DNA from: Psychromonas ossibalaenae ATCC BAA-1528
GTDB taxonomy: Bacteria; Pseudomonadota; Gammaproteobacteria; Enterobacterales; Psychromonadaceae
Length of the DNA stretch: 64,000 nt
NCBI RefSeq assembly: GCF_000381745.1
Contig: NZ_KB906992.1
Span: 1 to 64,000 of the forward strand
Direction of reading: 5' to 3'
Shown here: piece after piece, positions 18,387 through 47,118 of the stretch
How the letters are laid out: each line of letters opens with the position of its first letter
How positions within the stretch are numbered: position 1 is the stretch's first letter
Made by a program: the position numbers and the translations under genes
Notes under the pieces: generated by a model
Told to the model about the DNA's origin: nothing
What the model saw: only the letters and a program-made list of their open reading frames with translations
Database searches by the model: none

Positions 18387-21197
18387 ATGGAAAAACGTTA
18401 TCTCGAACTGATTAAACGTATAAGCACAAAGATTGATTCCAGTAGAATCATCAGTGATCCTGCCCTGCTCTTCGCTTATGGCGGTGATGCCAGTTTTTAT
18501 CGTTTAACCCCGCAGCTGATTGTGCAGCTGGACAACATCGATGAAGTTATTTTAGTTATCGTCCACTGTGCAGAGTTGTCTATTGCGGTTACCTTTCGGG
18601 CGGCCGGTACAAGTTTATCCGGACAGGCTCTTTCAGATTCCCTGCTAATTACCTTAACCAGCAGCTGGAACAATTTCAGAATCAGTACGGACGGCGCTAA
18701 AATTTCGCTGCAGCCCGGCATTATAGGCACACAGGCAAATCAGTATTTAGCCCCCTACGGCAGAAAAATCGGTCCGGACCCCGCCTCTATTGATACCTGT
18801 AAAATAGGCGGCATTGCAGCTAATAACTCCTCGGGAATGTGCTGCGGCACGGCGCACAACAGCTATAATACATTAGCGGGCATGACTGTAGTTTTATCCG
18901 ACGGCACGGTCTTAAATACCCTGGACGAAGATAGTATCAGTGACTTTAAATACAGCCGTCAAACCTTATTAGATGATTTATCCATGCTCGCAGAAACCTG
19001 TACAGCTAATAAGAAACTGTCAGCTAAAATCCGCCATAAGTACCGTCTGAAAAATACCACAGGTTACGGCATTAATGCGTTAATCGATTTTCAGGATCCG
19101 ATTGATATTCTTCAGCATTTAATGATCGGCTCAGAAGGCACCCTGGGATTTATTGCTGAAATAACCTATCACAGCGTAGCGGATCCCGCTTTTAAAGCCT
19201 GCGGCTTATTTGTATTTAACAATATTGAAAATACCTGTCTAGCGGTCAGTGAATTACAAAAAACCTCAGTCGCAGCCGTGGAATTAATGGATAACCGCTC
19301 TCTGCAGTCAGTCGCAGATAAAGCGGGCATGCCGGATTTTATTAAAAAGCTTGATAATGAATCGGCGGCTTTATTAATTGAAATACAGACACAAGATGCC
19401 TTAGCTCTGCAGCAGCAGCAGAGCAGCATAATGGAATTAATCAACATTTTTGATCCCGTTCATTACACGCCTTTCAGTCAGGATAAAAAAGTCAGTGAGC
19501 AGCTCTGGGCTGTTAGAAAAGGCCTATTTCCCGCTGTTGGTGCTGTGCGGGAAACCGGCACCACGGTGATCATTGAAGATATTGCATTTCCGACGGAACA
19601 GCTGGCGGCTGCGGTGCGGGATCTACACCTGCTGTTTAAACACTATCACTACCATGAAGCAATCATCTTCGGTCACGCTTTAGACGGCAATCTGCATTTT
19701 GTATTTACTCAGGCTTTTGAGACCGAACAGGAAATTCTGTGCTACCGGGATTTTATGCAGGATGTTGCTCTACTGACTGCAGTTCAGTACAAAGGCTCAT
19801 TAAAAGCGGAGCATGGAACCGGTCGCAATATGGCACCTTATGTGGAATTAGAATGGGGAAGTGAAGGTTATGCTTTAATGCGCCGCATTAAACAGATTTT
19901 TGACCCGGAAAATATCTTTAATCCCGGCGTGATTATTAATGAAGATAAACAGGTGCACCTTAAAAACCTGAAAGCGATGCCGGCAGCCGATACGCTGATC
20001 GATAAATGCATTGAATGCGGGTTCTGCGAACCGGTCTGCCCTTCCAGAAATTTAACCTTAACACCTAGACAAAGAAACTCACTGTACCGGGAGATCTGCC
20101 GCCTGCAGCGCAGCGGTGAGAATCCGCGCCGGCTCGCTGAACTGCGCGTCTCATTTAAATATTATGGTATTGATACCTGTGCAGCCACGGGACTTTGTGC
20201 AGACCGCTGCCCTGTTGATATTAACAGCGGTGACTTAATACTTAAATTACGTCAGGAACATTCATCTTTTCAGCGCCGTATTGCGCACTGCAGTGCACAG
20301 CATTTCAGCGCAGTCTGTAAATCAGCTCAGTTAGGCCTGCAGGCAGCCGATACAGCACATACCCTTCTCGGTAGTAAAAGAATGAGCACCGTTAGTAAAG
20401 CTTTACATCAGCGGTCAAAACAGCATTTACCTTTATGGTCTGTCAGTATGCCCCGTCCAGCGGGAAAAATGCCTCTTAAAATCAATGCAGTTAATCGGGA
20501 AAAAGTGGTTTACTTTCCAAGCTGTGCCGCCCGAAATATGGGAGGTGCAAAAAATAGTGCCGATCCGCGTCCGCTTGTGGAGGTCACACTGGCACTGTTA
20601 AATAAGGCCGGTTATCAAGTTATTATTCCTGAAGAGCTAAACACGCAGTGCTGCGGCATGCCCTACAGAAGCAAAGGTTTTACGGATATTTATAAAGATA
20701 AATCCCGGCAGCTTGAACAGGTTCTGCAGAAAGCCTCAAAAAACGGTAAATACCCGGTTCTAATGGATACCAGCCCCTGTGCAGCTCTAAGTAAAAAAAC
20801 ATTCACCTGTCGCGTAACAATTTTTGAACCTTTTCAGTTTATTGACCAATATGTATTACCCAAACTGCGTATTACTACGCAAACGGATCCGGTTATGCTC
20901 CATATCACCTGCTCTTCGTGGCGCTCCGGATTAGCTTCAATCATGCACAAAGTAACAAAAGCCTGTGCACAGACGGTCATTATACCGGATCAGATTGACT
21001 GCTGCGGTTTTGCCGGAGACAAAGGATTCACTTATCCGGAGTTAAATGCCAGTGCGCTTGCACCATTAAAATCGCAGATACCCGATAACTGCAGCGAAGG
21101 CTACTCAAACAGCCGTACCTGTGAGATAGGCCTGTCAGAGCATAGCGGTATTGAGTACCGCTCTATTTTATATTTAGTGGATAAAGTCAGTCGTTAA
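18387..21197 (+). CDS. dld: FAD/iron-sulfur quinone-linked D-lactate dehydrogenase (Dld-II type)
   Basis: Fused respiratory flavoprotein of 936 residues. The N-terminal FAD-binding domain (about 35-220; FRAAGTSLSGQALSD, IGPDPASIDTCKIGGIAANNSSGMCCG) is followed by the FAD-oxidase C-terminal domain to about 510 (FGHALDGNLHFVF, KAEHGTGRNMAPY). Then come two ferredoxin-like clusters (CIECGFCEPVCP; CAATGLCADRCPVD) and two GlpC-type cysteine-rich CCG domains (CCGMPYRSKG; CCGFAGDKGF). Layout and length match the Dld-II of Shewanella, which oxidises D-lactate with electrons to quinone. A 2-hydroxyglutarate dehydrogenase role is possible but less likely. GGAGAG lies upstream of ATG 18387. Single gene, divergent from glmS. 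Confidence 0.85.
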   Translation: MEKRYLELIKRISTKIDSSRIISDPALLFAYGGDASFYRLTPQLIVQLDNIDEVILVIVHCAELSIAVTFRAAGTSLSGQALSDSLLITLTSSWNNFRISTDGAKISLQPGIIGTQANQYLAPYGRKIGPDPASIDTCKIGGIAANNSSGMCCGTAHNSYNTLAGMTVVLSDGTVLNTLDEDSISDFKYSRQTLLDDLSMLAETCTANKKLSAKIRHKYRLKNTTGYGINALIDFQDPIDILQHLMIGSEGTLGFIAEITYHSVADPAFKACGLFVFNNIENTCLAVSELQKTSVAAVELMDNRSLQSVADKAGMPDFIKKLDNESAALLIEIQTQDALALQQQQSSIMELINIFDPVHYTPFSQDKKVSEQLWAVRKGLFPAVGAVRETGTTVIIEDIAFPTEQLAAAVRDLHLLFKHYHYHEAIIFGHALDGNLHFVFTQAFETEQEILCYRDFMQDVALLTAVQYKGSLKAEHGTGRNMAPYVELEWGSEGYALMRRIKQIFDPENIFNPGVIINEDKQVHLKNLKAMPAADTLIDKCIECGFCEPVCPSRNLTLTPRQRNSLYREICRLQRSGENPRRLAELRVSFKYYGIDTCAATGLCADRCPVDINSGDLILKLRQEHSSFQRRIAHCSAQHFSAVCKSAQLGLQAADTAHTLLGSKRMSTVSKALHQRSKQHLPLWSVSMPRPAGKMPLKINAVNREKVVYFPSCAARNMGGAKNSADPRPLVEVTLALLNKAGYQVIIPEELNTQCCGMPYRSKGFTDIYKDKSRQLEQVLQKASKNGKYPVLMDTSPCAALSKKTFTCRVTIFEPFQFIDQYVLPKLRITTQTDPVMLHITCSSWRSGLASIMHKVTKACAQTVIIPDQIDCCGFAGDKGFTYPELNASALAPLKSQIPDNCSEGYSNSRTCEIGLSEHSGIEYRSILYLVDKVSR

Positions 21198-21238: not shown

Positions 21239-21324
21239 GTATACAATTGTTATAATTATTTATTTCTTTATTTCATGTAAATGTTTACAGTTAAAACTCT
21301 TCACTAGATTATTTAGGATATTCG

Positions 21325-21579
21325 ATGCTGCTTGTTCATCTGAGTCATTTACTGCTGCTGCTGTGGAAGTTATCCACCGTTTTTGTGATCCCGATTATTA
21401 TCGTTACTTATGTAGCAGTAATGAACACCTATTCCGGTGATTTCACTTTTCAGCAGTTAGACCAGGGGAAGAATCTGCATAAATGGAGTGTATTTGCGGC
21501 TTACTTAGTTTATTTACTGGTTTGGAACCGTTCTAATAAAATGGTTTGTAATTACCTCAACAAGTTAAAATTTTCATGA
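21325..21579 (+). CDS. Small membrane protein of unknown function upstream of rmuC
   Basis: An 84-residue protein with one strong hydrophobic segment (LSHLLLLLWKLSTVFVIPIIIVTYVAV, about 6-32) and a second at about 53-66 (WSVFAAYLVYLLVW), ending in a basic tail. AGGA stands 8 bases before the ATG. Its TGA overlaps the rmuC start in an ATGA junction, which argues that it is translated and coupled to rmuC. I do not recognise the family. Confidence 0.6.
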   Translation: MLLVHLSHLLLLLWKLSTVFVIPIIIVTYVAVMNTYSGDFTFQQLDQGKNLHKWSVFAAYLVYLLVWNRSNKMVCNYLNKLKFS

Positions 21580-43278: not shown

Positions 43279-44175
43279 ATGAACAAAAAAAAAGTACTTA
43301 TTATTGGTTCTTCGGGATTAATCGGCTCTGTTTTAGTGCCTTTTTTACAAAGACACGGTTTTGAAGTGGGGAGGTTATTACGCAGGACACAGGAGGAACA
43401 TCCGTACTGGGACATAGAAAATAAATCACTGTGTTTAAAAAATTTTAACAACCCGAATATAATCATAAACTTAGCAGGAGAAAATATCGCTTCAGGGCGC
43501 TGGACAAAAAAGAAAAAACAGCAGCTTATAGACAGTCGAATTTTATCTACCCAGTTATTGGTTGAACACTTTAAAAACATCCAGCCGGCACCAGAGCTGT
43601 TCATAAACGCATCTGCCATTGGTTTTTATGGTGACAGGGGAGAAAAGCAGATGTATGAAGACTGCAGCCCCGGGATTGATTTTGTTAGTCATTTAAGTAA
43701 GTTATGGGAACAAAGCAGTCAGGATATTAAAACCGTCGGAACCCGCTTAATTAACTTACGTACGGGGCTTGTTCTTAGTAAAGAAGGAGGAGCTTTAGCT
43801 AAAATGTCACCTGCTTTTAAACTAGGCCTAGGCGGCCGGATCGGGTCAGGAAAACAGATCATGAGCTGGATTGATATCAATGATTTTCTGAAAGCCCTTT
43901 TGTTTATCATTAACAACCAGCAGATAAGTGGGCCGGTAAATATGGTCTCGCCGAATCCTGTTTCTAATCAAAACTTTAGCCAGTTACTCGCAAAACAATT
44001 ACAACGTCCGTGTCTGTTTCCTTTACCGGAGTTTGCTGTAAAGTTCTTATTTTCTGAAATGGGTAAAGAATTACTGCTGGCAAGTACCAATGTTTTTCCA
44101 AAAAAATTAATCGATGCGGGTTTTGAATTTGAATATGAAAAACTGCAGAAGAGTTTATTAAAACAGCTGGGCTAG
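43279..44175 (+). CDS. yfcH: TIGR01777-family NAD(P)-dependent epimerase (YfcH-like)
   Basis: Extended short-chain dehydrogenase-like protein of 298 residues with Rossmann motif IIGSSGLIGSVLVPFL, INLAGENIASGRWT, FINASAIGFYGDRG, RTGLVLSKEGGALAKM and a C-terminal DUF1731-type segment. The reaction is unknown; it is similar in length and pattern to E. coli YfcH. Last protein gene before the regulatory RNA region. Confidence 0.87.
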   Translation: MNKKKVLIIGSSGLIGSVLVPFLQRHGFEVGRLLRRTQEEHPYWDIENKSLCLKNFNNPNIIINLAGENIASGRWTKKKKQQLIDSRILSTQLLVEHFKNIQPAPELFINASAIGFYGDRGEKQMYEDCSPGIDFVSHLSKLWEQSSQDIKTVGTRLINLRTGLVLSKEGGALAKMSPAFKLGLGGRIGSGKQIMSWIDINDFLKALLFIINNQQISGPVNMVSPNPVSNQNFSQLLAKQLQRPCLFPLPEFAVKFLFSEMGKELLLASTNVFPKKLIDAGFEFEYEKLQKSLLKQLG

Positions 44176-44272
44176 GTATATATCTAAAAATTAAACGTCG
44201 AAAAAGAAAGGCCAGCCAGGGCACTTAACTTAGCTAAGTTTTTTGAAACTCAGCTAAAAATAAATAAATCGT

Positions 44273-44743
44273 AGAAAAAGGAAAGGGCAGCCGAAGCTGC
44301 CCTAAGTTTAGTCACTCTATCTGATCCGTGATAGTTGATGCTCCCTGCTGTACATCCGTTTGACTATGCCTATCCAAGGCGTCCACTTCCCAATCCTTTG
44401 GGTACATCCTTATAACATCCGTATGAGATAAACATCCTGCTTATCAATCATCTCCCTTTCCTTAGGAGGTGTCCTTCTTTTGTCATCCTGACTTAATAAC
44501 ATCAATCCTAGATATTACTAATCTTCCATCCTGGAAGTGATCCTTAACCGCATCCTGCAGCTTGTTCCGTTTATCATCCTGATATATAAAACAATCCTGT
44601 TTTATAATCTCCTGTCCTAGGAGTGTCCTTTTGTCATCCTGACCTGATAAATAATCCTAATTTATCATTAACAACATCCTGTTGTTATCCATGCATCTTC
44701 CGTTGATTGTTTCACATCCTGTAAAACACTCTCCTTCCTTGCG
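44273..44743 (-). ncRNA. csrB: CsrB-family CsrA-sequestering regulatory RNA, copy 1
   Basis: The minus strand encodes about 470 nt of consecutive short hairpins whose loops read AGGAT or similar, the binding site of the translational regulator CsrA. I count about 33 GGA triplets and 8 exact CAGGATG words. Clear hairpins include CTTCC-AGGAT-GGAAG, CTCCT-AGGAC-AGGAG, AACAAC-AGGAT-GTTGTT and GTTTTAC-AGGAT-GTAAAAC. The 3' end is a textbook terminator, GGGCAGC-TTCG-GCTGCCC (44302-44285) followed by TTTCCTTTTT. A TATTAT -10-like hexamer lies at 44755-44750, placing the start near 44743. Such RNAs titrate CsrA and so switch carbon storage, motility and virulence-type traits. No protein reading frame here is credible. 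The 5' end is estimated. Confidence 0.9.
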
Positions 44744-44902
44744 GTATAAATAATACGTCTGAACAGCCTTAAATATTGTATGCAAAAAAATATATTTTCA
44801 AACAAATGTAAAGAACAAAACAAATAACACATTAAATTCAATGCGTTACAAAAAAACATTCATCGAGCAAGACATAATTCAGCGTTTAACAGGCAGGATC
44901 TC

Positions 44903-44930
44903 TGCTAAGAGCAATGGTCGATCTCTCACA
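44903..44930 (-). promoter_or_regulatory. UvrY/GacA-type activator site upstream of csr copy 1
   Basis: On the minus strand this 28-bp block reads TGTGAGAGATCGACCATT followed by GCTCTTAGCA, an imperfect inverted repeat. It resembles the TGTRAGAGAT...CTTACA sites bound by the BarA/UvrY (GacS/GacA, VarS/VarA) response regulator before csrB genes, and sits about 160-190 bp before the predicted start, at nearly the same distance as in copy 2. Confidence 0.7.
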
Positions 44931-45191
44931 AGACATGTTTTCTATATTAATTTTTTCAGGGTAAATGCAGTAAAATAATTCAACCTGACTGTTTATAATA
45001 AACAAACATAGCCGAATAATTTTTGTTATTAGATTGATAAAAAAGAATTATTACAAAAAATGGCACAAAGTATACGACGGAATAAAACAGTTGAAACGGT
45101 GGTATTAACGGTTGTGAAAAGAAAAAGGCAGCCAGGGCTCTTGATGTTAGCTAAGTTTTATTGAAGATCAACTATAAGTAAATAAGTCGTA

Positions 45192-45745
45192 GAAAAAGGA
45201 AAGGGCAGCCGAAGCTGCCCTAAGTTTAGTCACTCTATCAAGTCCGTGATAGTTGATGCTCCCTGCTGTACATCCATTTGACTATGCCAGTCCTAGGCGT
45301 CCACTTACCAGTCCTTTGGCTGCATCCTTTTTATGTCCCTATCAGATAAACATCCTGCTTATCAGTCATCTCCCTTTCCGTAGGAGGTATCCTTGTTTTG
45401 CCGTCCTGACTTAATAATATCTATCCTGGATATTATTAATCCTTCCATCCTGGAAGTGTCCCTTAACCGCATCCTGCAGTGTATTCCGTTTATCATCCTG
45501 ATATATAAAACATCCCGTTTTATAAGCTTCCGTCCTGGAAGTGTTCCTTAACCGCATCCTGCAGTGTATTCCATTTATCGTCCTGATATATAAAACATCT
45601 TGTTTTATAAACTCCTAATCCAGGAGTGTCCCTTTGTTTTCCAAACCTGATAAATATTCCATCTTTATCATTAACAACATCCTGTTGTTTTCTCTGTATC
45701 TTCCGTTGATTGTTTTACATCCTGTAAAACATCCTGCTTCCTTGT
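45192..45745 (-). ncRNA. csrB: CsrB-family CsrA-sequestering regulatory RNA, copy 2
   Basis: A second, longer paralogue (about 555 nt) in tandem with copy 1 and on the same strand. About 38 GGA triplets, again mostly in hairpin loops, and the same terminator GGGCAGC-TTCG-GCTGCCC at 45220-45203 with T-rich tail. The TATTAT hexamer is at 45758-45753. It differs from copy 1 mainly by an internal 85-bp tandem duplication, which accounts for the whole length difference. Similarity to copy 1 extends about 60 bp past the terminator, showing duplication of the entire unit. The two promoters have diverged outside the -10 and activator regions. Confidence 0.9.
45442..45611. repeat. 85-bp tandem duplication inside csr copy 2
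   Basis: 45442-45526 and 45527-45611 are near-identical; both begin CTTCC-TCCTGGAAGTG and run through CTTAACCGCATCCTGCAGTG to TATATAAAACATC and TTTTATAA. About nine bases differ. Copy 1 has a single version, so the duplication arose after the two RNAs separated. It adds about five GGA sites. Confidence 0.9.
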
Positions 45746-45905
45746 GAAATAAATAATACGTCGCAACACTGATAAATACTGCCTTTAAAAAATAACAGTT
45801 TTCAAGAAGTGTCAAGAGAAAAACGACAACCACCTAAAAATCAACAACTTAGCAAAAACAACAAATTAACACTGCCGTAATTCAGCGCATAATGAGAAGG
45901 ATGTC

Positions 45906-45933
45906 TGCAAAAGCGAATGGTCAATCTCTTACA
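45906..45933 (-). promoter_or_regulatory. UvrY/GacA-type activator site upstream of csr copy 2
   Basis: On the minus strand it reads TGTAAGAGATTGACCATT and then CGCTTTTGCA. TGT-AGAGAT-GACCATT and the closing CT-TT-GCA agree with the site of copy 1, and the position relative to the -10 is conserved, although the surrounding sequence is not. That supports it as a functional element. Confidence 0.7.
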
Positions 45934-46123
45934 GCCCATAATTATCAGCGCGAATTATCCATGAGTGATAGTAAGATATTGTTTTATTGCCCGTTATTAG
46001 GACCAGAAAGATAAGCGGGTTGCTGATGCTTGCCGAATAAACTGATGAAATCACAGTCATTTTAGATAGAAACTACGACTGACACTGCCAGAGGCTGTTA
46101 TTAATAGCAGCAGAAAAAGACTG

Positions 46124-46144
46124 CCGAAGCAGCCTTATGTTTAG
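46124..46144 (-). terminator. Porin terminator homologous to the csr RNA 3' end
   Basis: On the minus strand GGCTGC-TTCG-GCAGTC-TTTTT ends the porin transcript, about 60 bp behind its stop. The preceding bases GTTTAGTCACT-TATC (46140-46162 region) match the 3' part of both csr RNAs, so this is a third, partial copy of the unit kept as a terminator. Confidence 0.82.
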
Positions 46145-46203
46145 TCACTTTATCCAGATACCGACTTCAACACTCAAACTCAAACTCAAAAAGCTTTATA
46201 GGT

Positions 46204-47118
46204 TTAGAAACTGTAACGAAGACCTGCTAATAATTCGTCTTCACCACCGTCTAAATTATCCAATTTATAAGAAACATAAGTGCGGATAGATTTATTAAAG
46301 CGGTATTGTGCTTCTAAAGCGGCAAAGTCCTGTGTATCTGTTTTAGCTCCGGCTTTATCTTGTTCTGCCATACCGTAAATAGCCAATAGACGGAACTCTG
46401 TAGTAAATTTATACTGAGCAGCCAGCTCTAATGAAGTAAAGTCGTCGTTTTCAGCTTCTTCACCAGCAGCATAAGTGGCACCGAGGTAAAGACTGTTTAA
46501 GGTATAGGCAGCCCCTGCAGTTACCTGCTTTTTTTCACCTTCGTCTGTGTAAGAAACACCTAAATCTAAACCAAAATCAAAAGCGTACAATGCAGATAGA
46601 GCCGCTGAGTCTGCATCTTTCTCATCACTGGCAATGTAGTTTGCCTGTACAGATAAAGCATCGTTTAAAAAGCTGCCCGCATATACGAAGTTATTACTTT
46701 GTTTGTCCGATGACGCGTCAATGTGCTGCTGCTGACCTGAATGGTAAGATGCAATATCAGTCATATCTGAAATCTGGACATTTGCAGTATCTTGTTTACC
46801 GTAAGAAAAATCACCTACGACAGTACCAAAACCTGCATATAAGTAACGATTTTTAAGATCACTATCAGGTTTGATTTCATACTCCATAAAACCAAAACCG
46901 GTTAAATTTTCGGAAATTTTAGTTTCACCAGCAAAATTAATACGTGCACGACTTTTATCTTCCATTGTGCCTTCAACCGAATCACTGAACAGCCCGCGCA
47001 CTTCTGCACGTCCGCCGACTGAGAGCTTAGTACCGTCTTTTTCATAAACGTCTGCAGCGTTAGCCGCACTTGAAATAAAGCTTGTTAATACCGCAACTGC
47101 TAATAATGTTTTTTTCAT
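46204..47118 (-). CDS. General outer-membrane porin (OmpU/OmpL-like)
   Basis: Gram-negative 16-strand-type porin of 304 residues. Signal peptide MKKTLLAVAVLTSFISSAANA; the mature part begins DVYEKDGTKLSVGGRAEVRGLF and includes YRYLYAGFG-type strand sequence (KNRYLYAGFGTVVGDFSYGKQDT), alternating amphipathic strands and a C-terminal LLAGLRYSF ending in Phe. GGAAG precedes the ATG. A Pho-box-like direct repeat lies 82 bp upstream and a Fur-box-like site about 150 bp upstream, so expression may respond to phosphate or iron. It is followed by a csr-derived terminator. Confidence 0.9.
   Translation of the reverse strand: MKKTLLAVAVLTSFISSAANAADVYEKDGTKLSVGGRAEVRGLFSDSVEGTMEDKSRARINFAGETKISENLTGFGFMEYEIKPDSDLKNRYLYAGFGTVVGDFSYGKQDTANVQISDMTDIASYHSGQQQHIDASSDKQSNNFVYAGSFLNDALSVQANYIASDEKDADSAALSALYAFDFGLDLGVSYTDEGEKKQVTAGAAYTLNSLYLGATYAAGEEAENDDFTSLELAAQYKFTTEFRLLAIYGMAEQDKAGAKTDTQDFAALEAQYRFNKSIRTYVSYKLDNLDGGEDELLAGLRYSF

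Follow-up and report, generated by a model that had tools for sequence, protein, structure and literature searches.

CsrB belongs to a well-known class of bacterial RNAs that act as decoys by titrating the regulatory protein CsrA. In Escherichia coli it is a multi-hairpin GGA sponge (RF00018) with 22 GGA in 369 nt, and one csrB is annotated in the 12-kb region examined. The sections of PMC4682653 on its promoter describe a UvrY site (TGTGAGAGATCTCTTACA) centred at −183/−182, an IHF-like site between this box and the promoter, and a requirement for IHF in optimal UvrY binding; for csrC of Salmonella, the same sections give TGTGAGACATTGACCATT as the UvrY site and report no apparent IHF site (PMC4682653). 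In Shewanella oneidensis, csrB1 and csrB2 (420 and 421 bp) are neighbouring, separately transcribed genes, each with a putative UvrY box and with a transposase gene between them, as stated in the available part of PMC3171408. New csrB copies that arose by duplication are described for A. salmonicida (csrB2 and csrB3, the latter adjoining the former) and Vibrio tasmaniensis (csrB4) in the relevant passages of PMC6262261, in which the sentence on A. salmonicida prints “Aeromonas”, the context being Aliivibrio. Several Csr sRNAs are known from a cold marine bacterium, Pseudoalteromonas fuliginea, whose Pf1, Pf2, and Pf3 have 25, 21, and 9 GGA according to the text available of PMC11882849. For CsrB in Psychromonas, no paper on the subject was found in the open-licence literature searched; one paper names both, in sentences that have no connection.

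Here we describe a tandem pair of probable csrB genes, A and B, on the minus strand of the window (the whole 64-kb stretch of Psychromonas ossibalaenae DNA that was analysed), A lying downstream of B with a gap of 445 bp. The features of the locus are as follows.

43279-44175, plus strand: epimerase/DUF1731 gene, flanking the csrB pair on one side.
44273-44745, minus strand: csrB unit A, predicted Csr sponge RNA of about 473 nt with 33 GGA (Rfam CsrB, GGA shuffles, fold z, covarying hairpins).
44284-44303, minus strand: putative intrinsic terminator stem-loop of A (sequence pattern).
44746-44757, minus strand: putative −10 region of A, CGTATTATTTAT (pattern search).
44836-44848, minus strand: IHF-like site of A, one mismatch, coordinates derived by hand from offsets.
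44913-44930, minus strand: UvrY-type activator site of A, TGTGAGAGATCGACCATT (genome-wide pattern search).
about 45191-45745, minus strand: csrB unit B, predicted Csr sponge RNA of about 555 nt with 38 GGA (Rfam CsrB, GGA shuffles, fold z), its 5′ end placed from the position of the −10 region.
45202-45221, minus strand: putative intrinsic terminator stem-loop of B (sequence pattern).
45442-45611, minus strand: an 85-nt cassette present twice in tandem within B (repeat search, family D3; TRF period 85; folds and GGA counts).
45749-45760, minus strand: putative −10 region of B, CGTATTATTTAT (pattern search).
45839-45851, minus strand: IHF-like site of B, a perfect match on the opposite strand to the consensus WATCAANNNNTTR, which is a weak motif.
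45916-45933, minus strand: UvrY-type activator site of B, TGTAAGAGATTGACCATT (genome-wide pattern search; compare the published Salmonella csrC site).
46112-46157, minus strand: what is probably left of the 3′ end of a third csrB, immediately following the porin gene; 46 nt align to the csrB 3′ end at 80% identity (E 5.5e-4), and the string GTGACTAAAC is shared.
46204-47118, minus strand: Porin_1 gene, flanking the csrB pair on the other side, upstream of B.

Like E. coli csrB, A and B appear to encode multi-hairpin GGA sponges behind a UvrY-type box and an IHF-like site, but both RNAs are longer and richer in GGA, they stand in tandem, and their box is of the csrC-like GACCATT type, whereas that of E. 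coli csrB is palindromic. The likeness to Salmonella csrC concerns the promoter only: its UvrY site is one base off the box TGTGAGAGATTGACCATT of a further copy in the host genome (C47, see below), while the IHF-like sites of A and B set them apart from csrC. The S. oneidensis pair shares with A and B the adjacent position and a box before each gene, and differs in its length and in the intervening transposase gene. The A. salmonicida and V. tasmaniensis copies are comparable as products of duplication; internal growth by cassettes, as in B, is not mentioned for them in the passages cited. The P. fuliginea RNAs have fewer GGA each, and the available text does not describe them as a tandem array.

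At the gathering score, the window contained two Rfam matches (release 15), both to RF00018 on the minus strand, with 76.5 bits for A (44273-44642) and 76.9 bits for B (45191-45558), exceeding the gathering score of 71 by a mere 5–6 bits. The number of GGA was clearly higher than in dinucleotide shuffles (n = 1000 each), with 33 in A compared to 17.3 ± 2.6 (maximum 24) and 38 in B compared to 20.4 ± 2.8 (maximum 29). A two-state density scan of both strands, with rates set by hand and segments kept at 8 GGA or more, returned A and B as the sole GGA-dense segments of the window. No open reading frame of at least 80 aa was found from 44225 to 46203, and the 1.5-kb array gave no match against a plasmid collection. 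The initial annotation had proposed two leftward CsrB-family RNAs, one of about 470 nt with roughly 33 GGA and one of about 555 nt with roughly 38, each with its own terminator, −10 hexamer and activator site. The exact counts and the covariance-model scores bear this out, as do the exact CGTATTATTTAT, the terminator-like stem and the activator box present at each unit.

The predicted folds of both RNAs were more stable than those of dinucleotide shuffles (z −4.65 for A and −5.85 for B, with 0 of 100 shuffles as good in either case). GGA triplets were more often unpaired than other triplets, at 0.72 vs. 0.39 in A and 0.65 vs. 0.41 in B, levels equalled by none of 477 and 559 circular shifts, respectively; in a local-hairpin model of A, 30 of the 33 GGA were wholly unpaired. 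To assess covariation, 20 of the 51 scored Psychromonas units were picked by hand, all of them free of the internal repeats that 11 units contain. The structure used was the RNAalifold result minus long-range and a few short pairs, plus two local three-pair stems. Its 74 local pairs were kept in 99.1% of cells, a value biased upward because this alignment also supplied the structure; the two-sided changes are therefore the stronger point. These were seen at 21 pairs compared to a shuffled mean of 9.0 (0 of 500 shuffles as high) and to 1–6 in slid versions. Hairpin loops other than that of the terminator held AGGA or GGA in most rows of the alignment.

Exact CGTATTATTTAT occurs twice in the window, while 0.01 occurrences are expected. 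A two-hexamer scan for the sigma-70 consensus listed neither −10 region, so that a −35 element was not recognised at A or B. The 18-base box TGTRAGAGATYGACCATT has its centre some 178 nt ahead of the start deduced from the −10 region. It differs at a single base from the UvrY site published for Salmonella csrC, and that 18-mer is itself present without mismatch before csrB units of two Psychromonas loci (L059 and L082). In the 5.2-Mb genome the box has four sites with no more than one mismatch, those of A, B, C47, and C52, and all four precede Csr-type RNAs. Sites with two mismatches comprised a decayed csrB copy (C78) and two further places (C1 and C5), behind which no GGA-dense stretch was found (5 and 3 GGA in 400 nt); at up to three mismatches the genome held 16 sites, compared to 13 for the reversed pattern. 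Throughout the genus, the 14-base core of the box was present with at most two mismatches in 47 of 52 promoters (50 of the 51 scored units, the other lying at a contig end, together with C52 and C78) and in 1 of 1040 shuffled controls, which preserve base composition only. A good box was missing in the remaining five, L066 (second unit), L071, L086, L088, and L091 (first unit).

For IHF we searched with WATCAANNNNTTR, which we take to be the consensus. The motif was found nine times in the window against 5.25 expected, and a consensus scan alone was dropped as evidence since the motif is too weak. Among the 52 promoters, 88% had an IHF-like site with at most one mismatch (33% when shuffled) and 15 (29%) an exact one (2% when shuffled), the distance to the box being equal in most of them. 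Since the scored loci themselves were the source of both the activator and the IHF motif, independent support lies solely in the scarcity of these motifs elsewhere and in the match to the Salmonella site.

The host genome contains one csrA gene (Pfam PF02599), an intact UvrY homologue (71% identity) and a nearly full-length BarA homologue (45% identity). The open frame of the uvrY homologue runs for 218 codons and is followed in frame by uvrC-like sequence (named by eye), an order also found in E. coli; a TAG reported inside the UvrY match was rejected as an internal stop, being the end of this frame. The features by which the CsrB/RsmB family can be recognised from sequence are thus present together: a score above the covariance-model threshold, GGA in hairpin loops, a terminator pattern, a distal UvrY/GacA-type box, and csrA in the genome.

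Four intact Csr RNAs were identified in this genome, A, B, C47, and C52, with a sum of 142 GGA, in addition to the decayed copy C78. C47 is an RNA of 696 nt with 44 GGA; its Rfam matches at 20798-21166 and 21241-21453 were rejected as two genes, as they belong to one RNA with an internal 133-nt duplication. C52 (L187:1595-2063, minus strand) is divergent, with 27 GGA in 469 nt and no Rfam match at the gathering score. It shares the activator box with A and B and differs from them in its hairpins and 3′ end. Together with its relatives in L057 and L073, it perhaps represents a CsrC-like class of the genus. The decayed copy (L007:3580-3850) has 11 GGA in 251 nt and has kept its promoter, with two mismatches in the box; no terminator was seen by eye in the stretch read. 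C47 and C78 each adjoin a PepSY-domain gene, the two genes being 88.5% alike, and in a related genome, G002, a homologue of this gene sits between the csrB array and the porin, so that the duplication of a block comprising PepSY and csrB is the probable origin of C47 and C78.

Within the family, 23 of 24 genomes had an RF00018 match at E ≤ 0.001, which lay above the cut-off in 12, and the sole genome without a match (G005) has a 20-GGA RNA by density scan. Two to three units with at least one gap below 1 kb were observed in nine of the 24 genomes (G000, G002, G006, G008, G010, G014, G016, G022, and G023). In a tree of 48 units built from their 3′ domains, A and B each grouped with a different G002 unit, A weakly (87/46) and B at 100/89, and the C47 copy was placed next to B (99/92). 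The tandem pairs of G014, G023, and G008 were near-identical within their own genome.

A position next to a porin, which the initial annotation had included among the peculiarities of the locus, is correct for the upstream side of B and does not distinguish it, because the synteny is common to much of the genus. Among 20 loci in which mnmE was seen, all chosen for holding csrB, a tblastn search at 1e-8 detected the porin in 14 (one at just 26% identity) and not in six. csrB can therefore occupy this place without a porin detectable by tblastn, and the porin as a functional partner of the pair was set aside. What look by eye like csrB 3′ fragments follow the porin gene in relatives too (genomes G005 and G012; loci L063 and L074). 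Such fragments may serve as the porin terminator or provide GGA hairpins in the 3′ UTR of the porin mRNA.

The main difference between A and B is one extra copy of the 85-nt cassette, which forms four hairpins with 6–7 GGA per copy and is present once in A (44523-44607). The two units are 76% alike over 267 nt on the 5′/promoter side and 88% over 284 nt on the 3′ side. Internal tandem repeats, with shortest periods of 54–159 nt, were found in 11 of the 51 scored Psychromonas units, whose RNAs range from 17 to 64 GGA. At an orthologous second locus of G023, G008, and G016, the 3′ domains are almost the same and the RNAs have 2.5, 5.5, and 6.7 repeat copies with 35, 58, and 64 GGA, respectively, copy numbers that come from draft assemblies and may be miscounted. 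The G016 RNA (L081:4576-5447) is 872 nt long with an 81-nt repeat, and the 1.4 kb scanned contained a single promoter box and a single terminator-like site; that of G008 (L067) is a single RNA of 792 nt, also with an 81-nt repeat. These two largest Csr RNAs of the genus had no Rfam match at the gathering score. A CsrB-like RNA of another family (L130 of genome G135, family f2) has 46 GGA and a 50-nt tandem repeat, and cassette growth is thus not confined to Psychromonas. No repeat-expanded CsrB was described in the titles or abstract openings of the open-licence literature searched. We regard internal cassette expansion as the less familiar and noteworthy part of this system, B being a mild example.

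A survey of the order returned a match in 157 of 295 genomes, an undercount, as few candidates were scored under strict filters and five Psychromonas genomes with Csr RNAs by density scan were missed. From eight other families 71 loci were read (30 returned by the survey, 40 chosen by hand, and L094; L112 and L142 overlap), and the occurrences are therefore examples rather than frequencies. Tandem csrB units were seen in all eight (f2, f10 with up to five, f11, f12, f18, f20, f21, and f25), including two tandem RNAs of 33 GGA each in f11 (L142). The 11 loci of f25 (L114-L124) have single RNAs with 35–44 GGA in one segment each, and in 10 of them the segment contains no terminator-like site but is followed by one; the exception is L114, whose count of 40 is slightly high because its segment runs about 40 nt beyond its terminator. 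In f18, 18 dense segments in 17 loci have 19–28 GGA. The segments of L113, L145, and L159 (893–1459 nt) are possibly two RNAs merged by the two-state model and were not used as maxima. The 33 and 38 GGA of A and B thus exceed E. coli CsrB and f18 and lie on the large side without being exceptional, given the single RNAs of f25 and the range within Psychromonas. The notion of unusually many GGA is mostly unsupported, and that of exceptional numbers was dropped after the survey. Also dropped was the tandem layout as special to this organism, since it recurs in every other family read and adjacent csrB genes are published for S. oneidensis and A. salmonicida. A and B are real and apparently functional members of a known RNA family; the original family call was right and the argument for novelty mostly wrong.

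We consider it very likely that A and B are two csrB genes with their own UvrY/IHF-dependent promoters and terminators, whose RNAs would sequester CsrA; from the sequence we predict their transcription, the binding of UvrY and IHF, the sequestration of CsrA, and whatever functional difference may exist between the two genes. In the proposed mechanism, UvrY phosphorylated within the BarA-UvrY pair would bind the box upstream of each start, and the DNA between box and promoter would be bent by IHF. Each gene would then give its own RNA of 470–560 nt ending at its own terminator, and the AGGA/GGA hairpin loops would bind CsrA dimers, lifting CsrA control of target mRNAs. The two genes would have arisen by gene duplication, with the doubling of the four-hairpin cassette in B as their main difference.

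The alternative that no RNA gene lies in the GGA-rich stretch, which would be a product of chance composition or a dead relic, is hardly credible in view of GGA numbers far above shuffles, the covariation, the conserved synteny, and the intact promoter boxes and terminators. That a leaky terminator of B lets polymerase continue into A, giving in part a joint transcript of about 1.5 kb, is very improbable: the two units do lie close together on the same strand, but B has a terminator-like site, A has its own box and −10 region, and the adjacent csrB genes of S. oneidensis are transcribed separately (PMC3171408).

A different question is whether A and B are equivalent. They could be siblings responding to different signals or at different times, as reported for Vibrio csrB copies, with the number of GGA mattering little. 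The lower likeness on the promoter side, the G002 partner of each unit in the tree, and the differential regulation of csrB copies described for V. tasmaniensis in a published abstract are consistent with this, but both promoters keep a common box, spacing, −10 region, and equally placed IHF-like site, and we consider it rather unlikely. Somewhat doubtful, too, is the idea that recombination between repeats produced the duplications, of cassettes and genes alike, as neutral side effects that leave CsrA control unchanged. The decayed copy C78, the csrB 3′ remnant after the porin, and the differing cassette numbers among close relatives speak for it; against it stand the near-complete retention of stem pairs in the 20 aligned RNAs and the presence of partners of both A and B in G002, weakly supported for A. 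Returning to A and B as working sponges, it is conceivable, and we put it forward tentatively, that the CsrB sponges of Psychromonas evolve in the manner of variable-number tandem repeats, so that the repeat number could quickly tune the capacity to hold CsrA.

The analysis describes four Csr RNAs and the anatomy of csrB promoters for a cold marine genus. Within one genome and among close relatives, it also provides a natural series of sponge sizes, in which the dependence of free CsrA on the count of CsrA sites per RNA could be measured.
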